Assembly: GCF_011250555.1 (NCBI RefSeq)
Contig: NZ_JAANMZ010000004.1
Coordinates: 1 to 64,000 of the forward strand
DNA: 64,000 nt
Reading direction: 5' to 3'
From: Bacillus sp. MM2020_4
Lineage (GTDB): Bacteria > Bacillota > Bacilli > Bacillales > Cytobacillaceae
Shown one piece after another: positions 1 to 8,885 of the stretch (its first letter is position 1; each line of letters opens with the position of its first letter). The notes under the pieces were generated by a model. That model saw nothing but the letters and a program-made list of their open reading frames with translations, did not search any database and was not told the DNA's origin. The position numbers were made by a program, and so were the translations under genes.

Positions 1-13
1 CCGTTATGTATTC

Positions 14-670
14 CTATTTATTCATGACAACCCCAACCAGTTTTGCTTTTGCAAAATCCAACACTTTTTTAGCTTCAGCCGCTTTTTCAAATTTTGTTTT
101 ACCATTTTGGATGACCAATATAACCCCATCACATTGATTTGCCAATAATTTAGTATCTGTTACTTCTAGTAGTGCATTTGTATCTATTAATATTGCAGCA
201 TATGATTTTGATGCTGTCTTTAGAAGGTCCTGCATCATATGGGAACCTAATAATTCAACTGGATTATACTGGATACGCCCACTAACTAAGAGATCTAGCC
301 TTCCGATTTCTGTATGTTGAATAGCCTCATAGAAAGATACTTTCCCAGTAAGTACATCTGTTAGCCCAATTGAATTAGATGTCTTAAAAAAGGAATGCAA
401 AGCAGGTTTCCTTATACTTGCATCTATTAATAGAACCTTCTCTTTCTGTTGTGCCATTGACACTGCCAGATTAGCCGCAGTAGTCGACTTACCTTCACCA
501 TCACCGGGCGAAGTAATTAAAAAAATTTGACTTTTTTCTTCAATCATAGAAAATTTAATATTTGTTTGAATCGTCCGAAATTGCTCCGATATCTTTGATT
601 CTGGATGTGAGTAGGTAACAATTGTCCTCTTTTTGTTAGCTAACAAAGATTTTCGCTTATTTATTACCAA
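14..670 (-). CDS. CpsD/EpsB-like bacterial tyrosine kinase, probably catalytically degenerate
   Basis: P-loop ATPase of the BY-kinase family, the cytoplasmic partner of the Wzz/EpsA-type membrane protein encoded just upstream; such pairs control exopolysaccharide polymerisation. The Walker A motif GDGEGKST lies near residues 56-63. Walker A' reads LLIDASIRKP (about 80-89), so the usual second Asp (DxD) is Ser. The Walker B segment is ILIDTNA rather than IDxPP. The protein stops at VVMNK, without the Tyr-rich tail that carries autophosphorylation sites in typical members. Start taken as TTG at 670 because AAGAGGTG lies 6 nt before it; GTG at 679 overlaps that site. It overlaps the upstream gene by 14 nt. 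The operon probably continues beyond the left edge. Confidence 0.85.
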   Translation of the reverse strand: MVINKRKSLLANKKRTIVTYSHPESKISEQFRTIQTNIKFSMIEEKSQIFLITSPGDGEGKSTTAANLAVSMAQQKEKVLLIDASIRKPALHSFFKTSNSIGLTDVLTGKVSFYEAIQHTEIGRLDLLVSGRIQYNPVELLGSHMMQDLLKTASKSYAAILIDTNALLEVTDTKLLANQCDGVILVIQNGKTKFEKAAEAKKVLDFAKAKLVGVVMNK

Positions 671-1394
671 TGTTCTCACCTCTTAGGTTATATTCAAGCT
701 GCATAGTATTCGTTTTCCTTTTTACACTTCTTTTGCTTACTTTTGACACTCTTCCTAATACAGGTACACCAAGTAATAATTCAATTTCACGGACTGAACG
801 AATTCTGTCATCCAATGACTCTAATAAAAATGCTAATCCAATACCAATTATTAAACCACCGGCAACCGCGATAAATAACTTATTATTGTTACCTTGATTA
901 ATTGCTACTGGGCTTACTTTAGCACCCGATAATAACCGTATATAGTCTTGACCGATTATGTTTGGTACTTCATCCCTAAATACCTTGGCCGTAGTATCCG
1001 CTAGTTTCGCTGCAAAAATGGGATCGGGGTCTATTACACTAATACTTACAACCTGGGACCCATCGACACTGCCAACACTAATTTGTCCTGCCAACGCTTC
1101 AGCAGTTCTATTAAGTTCTAGTTCTTTTATCACCTTGTCTAAAATGACTGAATCTCTAATTATTACTTGAAGGGTTTTTCTTGATTCTTCATCTGCACCT
1201 ATTATGATCCTTGAAGAAGATTGATACAGTGGAATAGTCCTGGTTTGACTTAGAAGTACCCCCACAATACCGGCAAGTATTGTAACTACTGCTATGACCC
1301 AGAATCGTCTTTTAACTACTAGGAAAAGTTCTTTTAAATTTATTTCCTTGGCTTTCTTTTTCTCAGCATTGTTAAATTGATCAAAACTATTCAT
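657..1394 (-). CDS. Wzz/EpsA-like polysaccharide chain-length modulator
   Basis: Membrane protein of the CpsC/CapA/YveK/EpsA family (245 aa) that partners a BY-kinase in exopolysaccharide chain-length control. A cytoplasmic N-terminus leads into TM1 (about 30-50, FWVIAVVTILAGIVGVLL), an extracytoplasmic Wzz domain, and TM2 near 172-192 (LFIAVAGGLIIGIGLAFLL) followed by the DDRIRSVREIE motif typical of the juxtamembrane region. The C-terminal cytoplasmic tail is short and basic. The ATG is preceded by AAAGGTGG. It is the first gene of the operon and has a good sigma-A promoter 130-160 nt upstream with an operator inside its spacer. It corresponds in position and kind to B. subtilis epsA, with the kinase-like gene as epsB. 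Confidence 0.88.
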   Translation of the reverse strand: MNSFDQFNNAEKKKAKEINLKELFLVVKRRFWVIAVVTILAGIVGVLLSQTRTIPLYQSSSRIIIGADEESRKTLQVIIRDSVILDKVIKELELNRTAEALAGQISVGSVDGSQVVSISVIDPDPIFAAKLADTTAKVFRDEVPNIIGQDYIRLLSGAKVSPVAINQGNNNKLFIAVAGGLIIGIGLAFLLESLDDRIRSVREIELLLGVPVLGRVSKVSKRSVKRKTNTMQLEYNLRGENIGNK

Positions 1395-1431
1395 TTAACC
1401 ACCTTTAATGTAAGACATTTATCCTTTAAGT

Positions 1432-1447
1432 ATTCTAAATAAAGAAC
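1432..1447 (-). promoter_or_regulatory. SinR-like operator in the EPS leader
   Basis: Minus strand reads GTTCTTTATTTAGAAT, a 16-nt inverted repeat one base short of a perfect GTTCT...AGAAC palindrome. It matches the operator at 1536-1551 in length and core and lies about 80 nt downstream of the predicted EPS transcription start. GTTCTYT is the recognised B. subtilis SinR box; assignment to SinR here is inference. Confidence 0.5.
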
Positions 1448-1529
1448 AAAATAACAAAAAAGAAAACCTTATAATTTTATTATTTCGACCCTTCAGCACC
1501 CGGAATATATTTTAGACTTTATAACATTT

Positions 1530-1558
1530 ATTATAGTTCTTTATACAGAACAGGTCAA
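1530..1558 (-). promoter_or_regulatory. Sigma-A promoter of the EPS (epsA/epsB-like) operon
   Basis: Minus strand: -35 TTGACC (1553-1558), exactly 17 nt spacer, -10 TATAAT (1530-1535). It lies upstream of the Wzz-like gene, giving a 5' leader of about 130 nt. The spacer is occupied almost entirely by the palindrome GTTCTGTATAAAGAAC. Confidence 0.75.
1536..1551. promoter_or_regulatory. SinR-like palindromic operator inside the EPS promoter
   Basis: GTTCTTTATACAGAAC on the plus strand: outer half-sites GTTCT and AGAAC are exact inverted repeats separated by 6 nt. It fills the -35/-10 spacer, so a bound protein should block RNA polymerase. It resembles the GTTCTYT SinR boxes that repress eps in B. 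subtilis. Confidence 0.6.
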
Positions 1559-1964
1559 TCGAATATTTTAAACTGTTAGATAAATGATGTTAAGTGGTAA
1601 TGGTAATATACTAGCAAACACTGAACCCCATTTGTTTTCTGCCAATGTATTGGATTACTTAATAAACCTTCTAGAAATGTATTTGCTTTGTGAAATAACA
1701 AATAAGTTTCATTTACAAATCCTCCTATTATTTCCTTGGCGCTTGGTTTTCCTCCAAGACCAAAAAAGGACATAAAGGAAAATATTAAAAATGAAGATAC
1801 GTAGGAAATGGTAATATCACAGCATCCCCTGAATAAGGCTATAAAAGTATAACCCACCATGTCACTCAACTTGGGAAACAACAAAAAAAGATAAAATCCC
1901 CCTCCCCAAATAATAGACAGAATAACTGGTTGTGGACCTCATTAATAATTTCAACTTGACCCTT

Positions 1965-2420
1965 TCAATTACCCATTCTTTTAGCAAATTTGCTTACCAC
2001 CACAAATTGGTCCATGACCTCTGCACCTGTTATAAATAAAGGGCCACTTCGCAGCCATGCATGAGCAATTAGTTTTCCATTTTCATCTTTCGAAGTTCCA
2101 AAATAAATAGTACTTTCGATTTTTCGCTTTTCCAACATTTTCATCGCTGCAATTGCCTTAACTAGACACATGCTTTCCCAAATTGTATAGCGGCTCATAA
2201 TATTAACTGCTTGGGATACATTCCTAATAAGTTTTCTATTCCCTTCATCCATATCAAAAGTAGTTTCTTTCATATGCTCTCCTAAGGAAGGAGCAACCTT
2301 TGAAAATGATATGCCTTTTAGAATTCGTGCCCAACCAAGAAGAAGAAAAGCCTCTACTAATAGCAGTTTTATCTTCATATCTAATAACATAAAAATCTTT
2401 AACCTTTTCAAAACTGTCAT
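1965..2420 (-). CDS. Lasso peptide leader peptidase (B2 protein, transglutaminase-like)
   Basis: Cysteine protease of the lasso B2/Transglut_core3 family (151 aa), expected to cut the precursor leader after the Thr-x pair. Visible motifs: WESMCLVKA with the likely catalytic Cys85, and LIAHAWLRSG with His120; an acidic residue (Glu134 or Asp137) may complete the triad. The length fits stand-alone B2 proteins of Firmicutes, where the RRE domain is a separate protein. It is the last gene of the C-A-K-B1-B2 run, 28 nt after B1. The ribosome binding site is weak (AGTAGGT), so it may rely on read-through from B1. No terminator is visible after it. Confidence 0.88.
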   Translation of the reverse strand: MTVLKRLKIFMLLDMKIKLLLVEAFLLLGWARILKGISFSKVAPSLGEHMKETTFDMDEGNRKLIRNVSQAVNIMSRYTIWESMCLVKAIAAMKMLEKRKIESTIYFGTSKDENGKLIAHAWLRSGPLFITGAEVMDQFVVVSKFAKRMGN

Positions 2421-2448
2421 TAGAAATTACCTACTTTTTTCATATTTA

Positions 2449-2748
2449 TTACAACGAGCGATCTAAAATTTCAATTAAGCCTTCATCCAATAAGAGTTCC
2501 AAAAACGATATAACATGGTCCTCACACTCTGACAATTTGACATCATAATTGGACATTAGGGTTTCAAGCAATTGTTTGACTGCCATTTCTTCCCCAATCA
2601 GATCCCAAATATCGCCGCCAATTTCACCTAAATTGTAGTACTTGCCTTTATTAACACTTAACATAACCTTTTCTCCACCCATATCACTAACAATGTTTCC
2701 TTTTATCTGGACAACGGAGTCGTTTAATGAAATCTTACTTTTAATCAT
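2449..2748 (-). CDS. Lasso peptide RiPP recognition element (B1, PqqD-like)
   Basis: Small PqqD-fold protein (99 aa) expected to bind the precursor leader and hand it to the B2 peptidase and the cyclase. Family signs: the early beta strands (VVQIKGN, KVMLSVNKGKYYNLGEIGGDIWDLI) with the NLGEIGGDIW core usual for lasso B1/PqqD proteins, then helices with SNYDVKLSECEDHVISFLELLLDEGLIE. It begins 2 nt after the kinase gene ends, whose last codons contain the AAAGGAGAG ribosome binding site for this ATG, indicating translational coupling. Confidence 0.9.
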   Translation of the reverse strand: MIKSKISLNDSVVQIKGNIVSDMGGEKVMLSVNKGKYYNLGEIGGDIWDLIGEEMAVKQLLETLMSNYDVKLSECEDHVISFLELLLDEGLIEILDRSL

Positions 2749-2750
2749 TT

Positions 2751-3680
2751 TTACTCTCCTTTTTCGATAGCATTTAATATTGTTGATACTAATTCGGTTG
2801 CGCTAAATCCATTAACAGGTCGTTTCAATTGATATATATCTATTTTATTTACTATATTGGCAGAAGTTTGAAAGTGCCAGTTCATTAACCCCAAATCCCT
2901 TATAAGGAAGTTTCGAAATGTATTGGAAAATAGGATATAAAACCGTTCCATTTTTTCTATTCTACGTATTTCAATCTTAGTATTCTTTGATTTTATTAAT
3001 TCAAAGACTCCCGCAAGCGGTAATGGTTCTCTAAAGTAATTTGTAGAAACTGGTACACTATACTTGGTTTCTCTCCCAAATATTGAATTGTAATCATTAG
3101 CATCCATTCCAAAATTACTTAGACTTTCTTTCCATAGCTTTTGCTGGGGATAGGATGGAGTTACAAATGGAATTGATTCTTCTTGCGAAAGAGAAACAGC
3201 TAAAACATCGTCACTTAAAAGTTGATACCCTTCACTTAAAAATGCAGATGCCAGCGTAGACTTTCCAGCCCCTGACTCCCCAATAATAGCATATGCTTTC
3301 CCGTTAATCGCCAAAGCACTTCCATGTAATGGAAATACTCTTCTTTGTAGTAAAATCGCCCCCATACAAGTTCCTAATAGATAAAGGCGAATGATATCCT
3401 CATCATAATCATTTAATGGAGAAACGATTATTTTTTTTCCTTCCATAATACAGAAGGTAGCAATATTAGGCACTTGGAACATAACTAAATTTTCATTAAC
3501 AACAAATGCACTCTGAGTATTTGATAATTCAAGCCATAACTTTGATAAGTCTTTAATTTTTATTTCCAAATCAATTGAAACTTTTTTATTATTCATTTGA
3601 GGTAATTCAGGAAAAGGAATTTCACTTTTAATCATATAGCCAAAAGCTTTGTAAATCACTTGTGTAGTTATTTCAATCAT
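2751..3680 (-). CDS. HPr-kinase-like lasso precursor kinase (PadeK/ThcoK type)
   Basis: Kinase-fold protein (309 aa) of the HPr kinase/phosphorylase-like group found in paeninodin-type lasso clusters, where it phosphorylates the C-terminal Ser of the precursor. The P-loop GESGAGKST sits near residues 133-141, preceded by HGSALAINGKAYAII and followed by LLSDDVLAV, the usual second motif of HPrK-like ATPases. The N-terminal part (1-120) is the variable beta-rich region of these enzymes. The precursor upstream ends in Ser, the expected acceptor. A 14-bp hairpin separates it from the precursor gene, and it is coupled to B1. Its role is inferred from family and context. Confidence 0.87.
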   Translation of the reverse strand: MIEITTQVIYKAFGYMIKSEIPFPELPQMNNKKVSIDLEIKIKDLSKLWLELSNTQSAFVVNENLVMFQVPNIATFCIMEGKKIIVSPLNDYDEDIIRLYLLGTCMGAILLQRRVFPLHGSALAINGKAYAIIGESGAGKSTLASAFLSEGYQLLSDDVLAVSLSQEESIPFVTPSYPQQKLWKESLSNFGMDANDYNSIFGRETKYSVPVSTNYFREPLPLAGVFELIKSKNTKIEIRRIEKMERFYILFSNTFRNFLIRDLGLMNWHFQTSANIVNKIDIYQLKRPVNGFSATELVSTILNAIEKGE

Positions 3681-3707
3681 TCTTCCAACTCCAATATATC
3701 CAGGGTT

Positions 3708-3753
3708 ATGTTGAAGGTCCTATATTCTTAATTCATACAAGGACCTTCAACAT
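3708..3753. promoter_or_regulatory. Strong hairpin between lasso precursor and kinase genes
   Basis: A perfect 14-bp inverted repeat: ATGTTGAAGGTCCT at 3708-3721 and AGGACCTTCAACAT at 3740-3753, with an 18-nt loop. On the minus-strand transcript it lies between precursor A and kinase K. No U-run follows, so it is more likely an RNA-stabilising or partial attenuator element that keeps precursor mRNA in excess over enzymes than a complete terminator. Confidence 0.7.
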
Positions 3754-3821
3754 GTGTACCTAAAATAATTGTAATCTACTAGGTTCCATATGTATGAAAT
3801 ACAAGTAGATTCGTTCCCCTT

Positions 3822-3953
3822 TTAGCTGAATGTTAAATCGCTTTTTAGGGTACCATCTGGAAAATCATTATCCAAACGATCCCCGTCAGCCCCAAGCATA
3901 GTCATATTAACATCAAGCACTTCTAATTCTGGTTTCTGCCATTCCTTTTTCAT
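3822..3953 (-). CDS. Lasso peptide precursor (A), paeninodin-like
   Basis: A 43-codon ORF between cyclase C and kinase K, with GGGGGGTGATTTA directly before the ATG. The predicted leader MKKEWQKPELEVLDVNMTM carries the WxxP and LxVLDV elements of lasso leaders, and Thr18 is at the conserved -2 position. The predicted 24-residue core starts at Leu20. Its first nine residues, LGADGDRLD, put Asp at core position 9, the right place to close a macrolactam with the Leu1 amine. Positions 7 and 8 are Arg and Leu, so no other 7-9 ring is possible. The acidic tail ends in DLTFS; the terminal Ser is the expected phosphorylation site. Core identity and modification are predictions. Confidence 0.88.
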   Translation of the reverse strand: MKKEWQKPELEVLDVNMTMLGADGDRLDNDFPDGTLKSDLTFS

Positions 3954-3967
3954 TAAATCACCCCCCT

Positions 3968-5908
3968 TCAAGAAAATTCTTTAATAAAACGATATACAAC
4001 TAAACTTTGCATTAAAATTTTATAGTCAGGATTTGTATCCAATTCCGGTCGAGCCCCTTGTCTTGCCATTACAAGAGCTTTTTCAATAACTAATCCATTT
4101 AAATATTCTATAGCCCTTTTATCTGTTCTAAGATGTTCGAGTTCATTTATGAATTTATCCCAATGTGGAACCATTCGATGAACCCAATCAGCACCTTGAA
4201 CCCCTCGGATACGTTGATTTAATCTAACCTTATCTGGTAATAAATTCTCTGTAGCCCTTCTTATAAGAGCTCGATCTAATCCATTTTGAACATATTGTTC
4301 TTCAGGTACTGATAAACAAAAACGAACTACCCGAATATCATTAGTTGGATCTCGCTTCCATAATGAGTGCTTTAAAGATAGTTTTGATGTAAGTGTATTA
4401 CCTGCATTCCATGGAAAGATATCTTCAAAAAGTGTTCTTCTTCCCTCATAAATATTTGAAGGTGAAAACCATCCTGATTGCCCAATACCATGCTTTTTTA
4501 GTTTTTCCATAATCCCAATACGTTTTGCAAATTCCGGGTTAATTAGAGACGGACGTTTATAAAGGGTTCCCTTTGGAAATAGTTGTTCAATTATCGGAAA
4601 GCCCACTCTCGCAATTGCTGGTAATCTTCGAAGTCTAGGACCGCCTACATTTTTGCAGTATTGATTTAATTCCTCAAAAAGCCGAATCCATTTTAGTCTT
4701 TTTAAAAGAATGCCGAAATAGTCAAGGGCTGATCCCCAAGATATGGTGAAATTTCCTCTATCTCCATTTAGTAAAACCCCAATCCCTTCCTTATGAGCAC
4801 TCTCAAACACGCCCTTTAACCAAAAAGAATTCTCAAAGAACTTGTAAGGCATTTCCATAATCTCAAGCATGTCATGGATTTCCGAATATGAATTCTTTCT
4901 CTCAAAATCCAAGTAGTGATCACTTATACCGCCAACGTGTTCTACTGTTAATTTAATAAAGGGCCTCTCATCGGCCATTAATTGCTTTGGAGTGAAGTCG
5001 ATAAAATCATTCGGTGGGATATAACTAAATGTGTGTAGTGTTTTATTTTCCTCCTTCATTGCCTTTGCAGCAAAACCAACTACCGCCCCGGAATCTAAAC
5101 CTCCACTTAACTGTGAACCCACTTTACGATGTGTTCGTAACCTACAGTTTACAGCCTCTTGAAAAACTTCTTGAAATGCTTCCACATACTCTTCGTTTGA
5201 TTTTAGTTTTAATCGTTCCCCCGTTGAAAACATCCCATATCTCGTAAGCTTAATTTTCCCCTGAGCTAGTAAAATACTATGAGCTGGAGGTAACTGTTCT
5301 ATATTTTTATAAGGTGTTGTTAAAGCATCTAATGTATCAATCATTCCGGAGATAGACAGGAATTCAGCAAGCCATTGTTCATTCAGTTGTTTATCTACAT
5401 AGGATAAAGAAAGTAATGGTTCTATTGTTGTACAAAAGGCAAAGCGTAATTGATTCTGGTAATAATAAAGGGTTCTATATCCCGAAAGATCTCTTGCACC
5501 AAAAAATTGTTGCCTTTTCTCATCCCATATCATAAAAGCGAAATCCCCTATTAAGTACTTCGGCGATTCTTCCCCCCACTTATGATAAGAAAGCAAAATT
5601 AACTCACTATCGGTTATTTCTTTTCTTTTTCTTTTATCAACTTGTAATCTCTCAAATAACTCTTCCCGATTATCAATAATTGCATCAGCCGTTATTGCTA
5701 GTTTCCTTTCATGATCATAGTAAGGAAGTTTTTCGCCGACGGACTCTGGGGTAATCCATTGGGCATGGCAGCCGAGGAAGACTTTATCGCTATTCCATAT
5801 CTGAACGTCGTTTGCAGGGTATCTTTCTAATTCCTTCATTAGGGTCCTGCCGTGTTCGAGGTTAATAGGTTCATCGTTTAAATGATATATTCCAGCTATT
5901 GCGCTCAT
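3968..5908 (-). CDS. Lasso peptide cyclase (C, asparagine-synthetase-like)
   Basis: ATP-dependent macrolactam synthetase of the asparagine synthetase B fold (646 aa). It should adenylate the core Asp9 side chain and close the ring with the Leu1 amine. The N-terminal Ntn-type domain begins MSAIAGIY; the Cys2 nucleophile of true glutamine-dependent enzymes is Ser, as is common in lasso cyclases that need no ammonia. The ATP pyrophosphatase loop SGGLDSGAVVG is near residues 267-277. The C-terminal half has the RWKRDPTND-like substrate helix (LWKRDPTNDIRVVRF). The ribosome binding site is GGAGG. It is the first gene of the operon, 14 nt before the precursor gene. Confidence 0.92.
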   Translation of the reverse strand: MSAIAGIYHLNDEPINLEHGRTLMKELERYPANDVQIWNSDKVFLGCHAQWITPESVGEKLPYYDHERKLAITADAIIDNREELFERLQVDKRKRKEITDSELILLSYHKWGEESPKYLIGDFAFMIWDEKRQQFFGARDLSGYRTLYYYQNQLRFAFCTTIEPLLSLSYVDKQLNEQWLAEFLSISGMIDTLDALTTPYKNIEQLPPAHSILLAQGKIKLTRYGMFSTGERLKLKSNEEYVEAFQEVFQEAVNCRLRTHRKVGSQLSGGLDSGAVVGFAAKAMKEENKTLHTFSYIPPNDFIDFTPKQLMADERPFIKLTVEHVGGISDHYLDFERKNSYSEIHDMLEIMEMPYKFFENSFWLKGVFESAHKEGIGVLLNGDRGNFTISWGSALDYFGILLKRLKWIRLFEELNQYCKNVGGPRLRRLPAIARVGFPIIEQLFPKGTLYKRPSLINPEFAKRIGIMEKLKKHGIGQSGWFSPSNIYEGRRTLFEDIFPWNAGNTLTSKLSLKHSLWKRDPTNDIRVVRFCLSVPEEQYVQNGLDRALIRRATENLLPDKVRLNQRIRGVQGADWVHRMVPHWDKFINELEHLRTDKRAIEYLNGLVIEKALVMARQGARPELDTNPDYKILMQSLVVYRFIKEFS

Positions 5909-6001
5909 TGTTTCCTCCTGCCAAGTATGTAAAAGTCATCTATTTTCAAAATCCATACTTTTAACCTATGCTTACCCATTGTTTAATTATTCAGACTACT
6001 C

Positions 6002-6029
6002 ATTATAAAATTATGTTCTACAAAGTGAA
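6002..6029 (-). promoter_or_regulatory. Possible second, proximal promoter of the lasso operon
   Basis: Minus strand -35 TTCACT (6024-6029), 16-nt spacer, -10 TATAAT (6002-6007), about 95 nt before the cyclase ATG. A degenerate SinR-like element (GTTCTACAAAGTGAAT, 6015-6030) overlaps its spacer and -35. Weaker than the distal promoter. Confidence 0.4.
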
Positions 6030-6030
6030 T
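6015..6030. promoter_or_regulatory. Degenerate SinR-like half-palindrome
   Basis: GTTCTACAAAGTGAAT keeps the GTTCT half-site and the 16-nt span of the other operators, but the second half is TGAAT instead of AGAAC. It overlaps the proximal lasso promoter. Confidence 0.35.
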
Positions 6031-6155
6031 ATTTTCTCATATTCCCTCTACTATTCATTTAGCCCTAAAGACCCGCAATTTCTCCTATTTTTTAATAAGT
6101 AATAGATTTAACACCATTGAATACTCATTAAAATGTAACTAATTACGAACATGTA

Positions 6156-6171
6156 GTTCTACATAAAGAAC
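6156..6171. promoter_or_regulatory. SinR-like palindromic operator at the lasso promoter
   Basis: GTTCTACATAAAGAAC on the plus strand, GTTCTTTATGTAGAAC on the minus strand; it differs from the EPS operator only in the two central bases. It lies roughly at +8 to +23 relative to the predicted start of the distal lasso promoter. A further GAAC half-site is at 6147-6150. Confidence 0.6.
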
Positions 6172-6295: not shown

Positions 6296-6320
6296 TTATA
6301 AATAATCTAAATAATCGATT

Positions 6321-6435
6321 TCTTATCAAGAGAGGTTGAGGGAATGGCCCTACGACGCCTCAGCAACCATCAATGGATTCATCCATTGAAAAGGTGCTAA
6401 GTCCTGCAAATTAGCTGCTAATTTGCAAGATAAGA
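6321..6435 (+). promoter_or_regulatory. SAM-I (S-box) riboswitch aptamer
   Basis: P1 is closed by TCTTATC (6321-6327) and GATAAGA (6429-6435). Between them are the hallmark S-box segments AGAGGTTGAGGGA, CCCTACGACGCCTCAGCAACC and AAGGTGCTAA, with the P3 and P4 hairpins. SAM binding stabilises P1 and lets the downstream terminator at 6461 form, switching off metI-metC-yitJ-metH when SAM is plentiful. The segment 6432-6470 (AGAAG...CTTCT) can serve as antiterminator. Confidence 0.96.
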
Positions 6436-6460
6436 AGAATGACACTTTGGTCGTGCTTAC

Positions 6461-7692: not shown

Positions 7693-8885
7693 TGGCACAG
7701 GAAGAATTTAGTTTTGAAACCAGGCTTCTCCATAATAAACATAAAATCGATCCAACCACCGGTGCTGTCAGTGTGCCGATTCAGCATGCATCCACCTTCC
7801 ATCAATCTGATTTTGATCAGTTTGGTAAGTACGATTATGGCCGTAGTTTAAATCCGACAAGGGAAGCACTTGAAGATGTCATTGCTGAACTCGAAGGCGG
7901 GGTAAAAGGATTTGCCTTTTCATCCGGTATGGCCGCGATCTCGACGGCATTTCTTCTGCTTTCTGCCGGGGATCATATGGTGATAACCGAAGATGTGTAC
8001 GGCGGTACCTTCCGAATGGTGACGGAGGTTCTTTCACGGCTTGGGATTGAACATACATTTGTTGATATGACAAATCTTGATGAAGTAAAACAAGCGATTC
8101 AACACAATACTAAAGCCTTTTATGTGGAAACACCGTCGAATCCATTGATGAAAGTAACTGACATTAAGGCGATTAGTAAGATAGCAAAGAAAACGGGTGC
8201 GTTCACCTTTGTTGATAACACGTTCCTTACTCCAGCCTTTCAAAAACCATTGGCATTAGGTGCAGATGTTGTCCTCCATAGCGCTACAAAATTTTTATCC
8301 GGGCATAGTGATGTCGTGGCAGGACTCGCGGTTGTCAAGGACGAAGATTTAGCCAAAAGATTAGGCTTTTTACAAAATGGCTTTGGCGCGATCCTGGGTG
8401 TTCAAGATGCTTGGCTTGTATTAAGAGGCATTAAGACGCTGCACGTCCGTCTGGAACAATCACAAAAGTCGGCTATGAAACTAGCGGAATTTTTAGATGC
8501 CCATCACCTTGTTGAAAAAGTTCATTATCCAGGGCTTGAAAGTCATCCGCAATATCAGCTGCAAAAAGAGCAAGCAGCTAGTCCTGGGGCCGTGTTATCG
8601 TTTGAACTGGCTACTGAAGATGCGCTGCGAATCTTTCTTGCCAATGTAAAAATCCCTGTATTCGCGGTTAGTCTCGGTGCAGTTGAATCGATTCTTTCCT
8701 ACCCGGCAAAAATGTCTCATGCGGCAATGCCACAAGCGGAACGAGAAAAGCGCGGGATTACCAATAGCCTTATCCGCCTATCGGTTGGGCTCGAAAACCC
8801 AGAAGATTTGATTAAAGACTTTTCACAGGCCCTCCGTCATGTTGAACAAAAACAATTGGTTTTACCACAAGGAGAAACTCCATGA
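7692..8885 (+). CDS. metC: Cystathionine beta-lyase MetC
   Basis: PLP enzyme (397 aa) paralogous to the preceding gene. It splits cystathionine into homocysteine, pyruvate and ammonia. Motifs: [29 protein letters not shown], and the PLP lysine in [16 protein letters not shown] (Lys200). The gene order metI-metC behind an S-box is the standard Bacillus arrangement and supports the beta-lyase role, although MetI/MetC paralogues are hard to tell apart from sequence alone. It is coupled by a 1-nt overlap upstream and an ATGA overlap downstream. Confidence 0.9.

Follow-up and report, generated by a model that had tools for sequence, protein, structure and literature searches.

A predicted paeninodin-family lasso peptide precursor on an accessory island of Bacillus sp. 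MM2020_4

A short open reading frame (ORF) lies between a lasso cyclase gene and an HPr-kinase-like gene in Bacillus sp. MM2020_4, which raises the question of whether it encodes a lasso peptide precursor and, if so, what ring, tail modification and enzymes its product would have. The window analyzed here is the whole stretch of 64,000 nucleotides from the start of contig NZ_JAANMZ010000004.1. The 43-codon ORF and ribosome binding site claimed by an earlier note were recovered exactly, with precursor gene A (43 amino acids plus stop; MKKEWQKPELEVLDVNMTMLGADGDRLDNDFPDGTLKSDLTFS) at 3822-3953 on the (-) strand and a Shine-Dalgarno sequence AAGGGGGGTGAT (3957-3968, (-)) ahead of its ATG; this Shine-Dalgarno sequence overlaps the cyclase stop codon by one base, its own first and the codon's last. 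The assignment of gene A draws on a profile match, on syntenic homologues in 79 of 79 related loci and on alignment. Gene A scores 56.1 bits (cutoff 27; E = 2e-15) with NF033524, the NCBIfam model for paeninodin-family lasso peptides, which is far above chance, and this model would give the ORF its name. The leader MKKEWQKPELEVLDVNMTM (3897-3953, (-)) carries a WxxPxL motif (W-15, P-12, L-10; Trp 15 residues ahead of the core) with the spacing of PbaA, as well as Thr(-2), and the core LGADGDRLDNDFPDGTLKSDLTFS (3825-3896, (-)) ends in Ser24; the WxxP motif, the Thr at -2 and the core start LGADGDRLD were all present as the earlier note had described. Its remark that no peptide with this core had been described agrees with the literature texts searched, in none of which the string LGADGDRLD occurs, and the precursor as a query found no match in the PDB. 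Judged by its sequence, the ORF is a real, intact paeninodin-family precursor, its core sequence being new and its kind well known. Leu1 is uncommon among characterized lasso peptides; Leu is the first core residue in 28 of 108 related precursors.

To place the precursor among its relatives, GTDB species genomes were searched with the cyclase as query, yielding 79 loci (56-71% identity, nearly all Bacillales-type), each with a homologous precursor ORF directly after the cyclase gene; the commonest gene order was C-A-K-B1-B2-NT. Same-genus genomes (Neobacillus in GTDB usage) include N. novalis, N. soli and N. cucumis, which also contributed loci to the cyclase scan. Comparison of 108 distinct precursors (core start fixed 15 residues after the leader Trp) supported both the family assignment and the leader/core boundary, Thr(-2) being invariant (108/108). 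The last core residue is Ser in 106 of the 108 and Cys in two, while the penultimate position is diverse (the commonest residue occurs in just 17). A modification site under conservation should look like this, and the earlier suggestion that the kinase modifies the C-terminal Ser is borne out at the level of sequence. A plain lasso peptide without phosphate, made by an intact gene set whose kinase acts on another target, is improbable: two precursors of the set end in Cys, yet their loci have retained the kinase gene, but Ser is last in nearly all cores despite otherwise diverse tails, and phosphorylation of the C-terminal Ser has been shown in four relatives, namely paeninodin, ThcoA, SyanA and pseudomycoidin (PMC9266682). 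The Cys-ending precursors (L009:7956-8087 and L052 ~7950-8087), with a kinase gene nevertheless present, are a natural loss-of-site experiment. The survey also turned up small ORFs in L151, L157, L162 and L082 (L082:13373-13564) with family-type leaders, repetitive Gly/Pro/Asp tails and no ring acid at positions 7-9, possibly another RiPP type with the same leader.

The genes around the precursor follow the standard order of the paeninodin family (C-A-K-B1-B2), and all five are free of stops and frameshifts. Upstream lies an AsnB-like cyclase gene C (3968-5908, (-); SGGLDSG ATP motif at residue 268), which Pfam assigns to Asn_synthase (PF00733) and which matched NF033535 at E = 7e-126 and 421 bits, below the 525-bit cutoff, as is the paralogue in the same genome. 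Its N terminus reads MSAIAGIY, confirming the reported replacement of the AsnB Cys2 by Ser; with Ser at this position in 62 of the 64 homologues readable by pattern, Ser2 is the rule of the family and no oddity. The HPr-kinase-like gene followed by B1 and B2 was likewise found where expected. Kinase K (2751-3680, (-)) has weak matches to PF07475 and TIGR04352, aligns with HPr kinase structures, has the Walker A motif GESGAGKST, and keeps the His-Lys-Asp-Asp residues (H119, Walker-A K140, D157 and D158). Kinases of this family, PadeK and ThcoK among them, need these residues, and their target is the Ser at the C terminus of the precursor in its linear form (PMC9266682). B1 (2449-2748, (-)) is a discrete RRE of paeninodin type (NF033536, 129 bits, cutoff 80) that also matches crystallized PbaB1 (9x90) at 117 bits, the pocket of which prefers Trp in the leader (PMC13381572). 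B2 (1965-2420, (-)) is a leader peptidase with C85 and H120 (NF033537, 105 bits, cutoff 33). An ABC transporter and a nucleotidyltransferase are absent beside the cluster, unlike in most relatives.

Taken together, the sequence evidence for a paeninodin-family precursor is strong, and we consider it very probable that the ORF is such a precursor, matured by C, K, B1 and B2 along the following route. Gene set, motifs, conservation and island come from the sequence; the enzymatic steps, phosphorylation, threading and sharing in trans are modeled on characterized relatives. By this analogy, B1 would bind the leader at its WxxPxL motif, the HprK-like kinase would phosphorylate Ser24 on the linear precursor, B2 would cleave after Thr-Met, and C would adenylate Asp9 and couple it with the Leu1 amino group, so that a nine-residue ring traps the tail. 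The product would be a class II lasso peptide without cysteine, with an expected neutral monoisotopic mass of 2550.187 Da, rising to 2630.154 Da upon addition of one phosphate.

The earlier note had allowed a single ring, Leu1-Asp9, and the comparison agrees. Within the first eleven core residues acids occur at positions 4, 6, 9 and 11, and of D4, D6 and D9 only D9 falls in the usual range of 7-9. The window cyclase, placed on a 98-cyclase tree, falls within a 22-row group of moderate support (SH-aLRT 91; inner 14-row group, 97), and every precursor of this group has D9. An 11-residue ring via Asp11 was rejected because the group conserves D9 and not D11 (many members read TDAAF), and a ring joining Leu1 and Asp9 is therefore the best prediction for the window peptide. 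Among all 108 cores, D9 is the only acid within positions 7-9 in 70, and 30 have D10 and no acid at 7-9 (for example L017 (PbaA), L020, L021, L031, L033 and L047). Of the two features that the earlier note had expected of homologues, the Thr-x cleavage site thus held throughout (108/108) and the acid at core positions 7-9 did not, being lacking in 30 of 108; those 30 have Asp at position 10 and belong to other branches. The window core, having D9 and N10, was discarded as a predicted 10-residue-ring precursor. The D9/D10 label requires three changes on the cyclase tree, against ~30 with shuffled labels, and alignment of the two groups places a one-residue indel between the core start and the invariant Gly and Asp. 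An indel at this place might instead reflect a leader cut that falls one residue further on in D10-group precursors, without a larger ring. In six tandem loci (L019, L028, L049, L053, L055 and L059) a D10-only precursor and a D9 precursor have a single B1/B2 between them, which argues for the same leader cut in both and hence for an extra ring residue in the D10 group. D10-group precursors are thus predicted to give natural 10-residue rings. Structurally characterized rings have 7, 8 or 9 residues, and 10 has been reached only by engineering fusilassin (2026 review, PMC13352647); no report of a natural 10-residue ring was found in the literature searched, the coverage of which is incomplete. 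The large set of D10 relatives would take natural lasso rings beyond the characterized sizes.

The window cluster is part of an accessory island (window 1-6156; right junction near 6157). In G041, a complete genome of the same species, a gene that in the window's own genome lies at C59:~58.1-58.85 kb, and which we take to be DUF421-like, is followed after ~10 bp by the sequence of the window from 6157 onward (the metI leader). This junction makes C59:58,853-88,279 and window 1-6156 opposite ends of a single island, at least 35.6 kb long plus an assembly gap, that is absent at the same site in G041; searches of that genome for NF033524, B2 and lasso-type cyclases found nothing. The C59 part begins with a block of ABC transporter, nucleotidyltransferase-like, kinase, second precursor and second cyclase genes. 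It continues with an LPP-type cluster (LPP, linear polyphosphorylated peptides) of nucleotidyltransferase-like, ABC, SipW-like peptidase, RRE and kinase genes and a YAKPIV precursor, and ends in glycosyltransferase and other polysaccharide-type genes leading towards the window genes for a Wzz-like polysaccharide chain-length determinant (657-1394, (-); TIGR01006, 103 bits, below cutoff) and a CpsD-like polysaccharide-type tyrosine autokinase (14-679, (-); TIGR01007, 178 bits). A probable LPP precursor with the YAKPIV leader motif was located at L115:16574-16825. On the other side of the junction, metI also neighbors the lasso cyclase gene at six further loci, those of N. novalis, N. soli, N. 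cucumis and N. niacini PL-B1 among them, and is preceded in the window by an ordinary SAM riboswitch (6320-6436; Rfam). Very patchily distributed lasso and LPP clusters beside capsule loci were described in 2026 (PMC13381572); here the tie between the lasso cluster and capsule genes is positional. Presence or absence of the island within one species makes the role of these peptides approachable by strain comparison.

The neighborhood raises the question of whether precursor A itself belongs to the LPP, systems that also use an HprK-like kinase and an RRE and one of which lies on the same island. This is highly improbable: the RRE motif of the leader carries Trp instead of Tyr, and the cyclase and B2 genes adjoin the precursor (on these two grounds LPP identity was ruled out), no SipW-like or signal-peptidase-like gene was found in the window cluster, and the island carries its own LPP-type precursor with YAKPIV. 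It is also unlikely that the window holds a decaying remnant, one half of a formerly whole cluster that capsule genes have split and that is no longer productive. It has neither a transporter nor a nucleotidyltransferase gene alongside, and the half having both sits across the capsule genes; against this, the five genes keep intact frames, and N. novalis has a similar split arrangement in which the first cluster is complete. The cluster could nonetheless be silent or in mid-decay, though its five reading frames are intact. In the paeninodin-family reading, the missing ABC transporter and nucleotidyltransferase would probably be supplied by the second lasso locus of the same island.

This second locus (L115:9639-11776; G000:C59 ~63.6-65.8 kb) comprises a cyclase and a precursor with a two-cysteine core NGPGNANADCFDVSDGLQETHTGRSNASCLDKDAIGS of the type NGPGNANADCF...C... 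and has no lasso B1 or B2 of its own. A whole-genome search found one B2 and one paeninodin-type B1, both inside the window; another RRE match (36.5 bits, under the cutoff) belongs to the LPP cluster, and the Trp in the second precursor's leader fits the window's B1 better than the LPP RRE. In a family-level search, all 12 genomes with the cysteine type also had another paeninodin-family precursor, compared with 6 of the 49 genomes that lack it (Fisher P = 1e-8, relatedness ignored), and each of the 12 had two lasso cyclases and only a single B2. On the tree, the cysteine-type cyclases group as one clade (one change), and 17 loci have two C-A pairs in tandem ahead of a single K-B1-B2. Given the single B1/B2, the co-occurrence and the tandem loci, sharing of B1/B2 is very likely, and the window's B1 and B2 probably process both lasso peptides. 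Two lasso peptides that apparently share one leader peptidase are a testable lead; that they act together is conjecture. The fuller proposal of a split two-lasso system, in which one B1/B2 matures two peptides with their own cyclases as an obligate pair in capsule-linked biology, is possible but somewhat doubtful.

Between A and K lies a perfect 14-bp inverted repeat (3708-3753, (-); fold z-score, -3.9), and such a repeat follows most A genes, with the consensus GCCCTTATAC-loop-GTATAAGGGC. In an alignment of the window copy with those of 49 related loci, 96.3% of cells pair and both partners vary in 12 of the 15 pairs (0 of 500 shuffles reached that), values biased upwards by the choice of sequences for having an inverted repeat; sequence conservation across genera is more informative evidence for the hairpin than these pairing counts. 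The window copy is without a U-run. Its candidacy as a lasso-specific RNA was dropped when the model also matched ordinary terminators elsewhere in the genome, and the hairpin is accordingly best read as a terminator-like attenuator or a protector of the mRNA 3' end, likely raising precursor output relative to the enzymes. We propose no promoter here, since scanning predicted fewer sites in the region than in shuffled sequence, and an Rfam scan gave nothing beyond the SAM riboswitch of neighboring metI.

Compared with known systems, the window peptide adds one core to a widespread family of kinase-modified lasso peptides. The closest experimentally studied relative is PbaA of the pba cluster (Paenibacillus alginolyticus DSM 5050, L017; leader MKKEWLKPELEVLDVNQTM, tail ...GTPKDKLTWS), which has the same genes as the window cluster and, like it, adjoins LPP and exopolysaccharide genes, but PbaA has one residue more in the ring segment, with the conserved Asp at position 10 where the window core has Asp at 9. 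Paeninodin (Paenibacillus dendritiformis C454) shares the leader type, Thr(-2), the nine-residue ring (predicted here), the C-terminal Ser, the HprK-like kinase and discrete B1 and B2 proteins; paeninodin-like cores, however, start AGPG..., with Ala1 in place of the Leu1 of the window core, and sit on a different branch of the cyclase tree. With pseudomycoidin (Bacillus pseudomycoides psm cluster) the window peptide shares a Bacillaceae host and a kinase-modified C-terminal Ser, the modification being predicted for the window peptide; psm carries a nucleotidyltransferase gene linked to hexose addition, whereas none adjoins the window cluster. The closest core found belongs to a homologue from Halobacillus sp. 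A1 (L024, LGTEGDHLDNDFPEGTHRGDLTFS), which shares D9 and the LTFS tail and, unlike the window precursor, is encoded in a tandem arrangement beside another cyclase and a precursor of the cysteine type.
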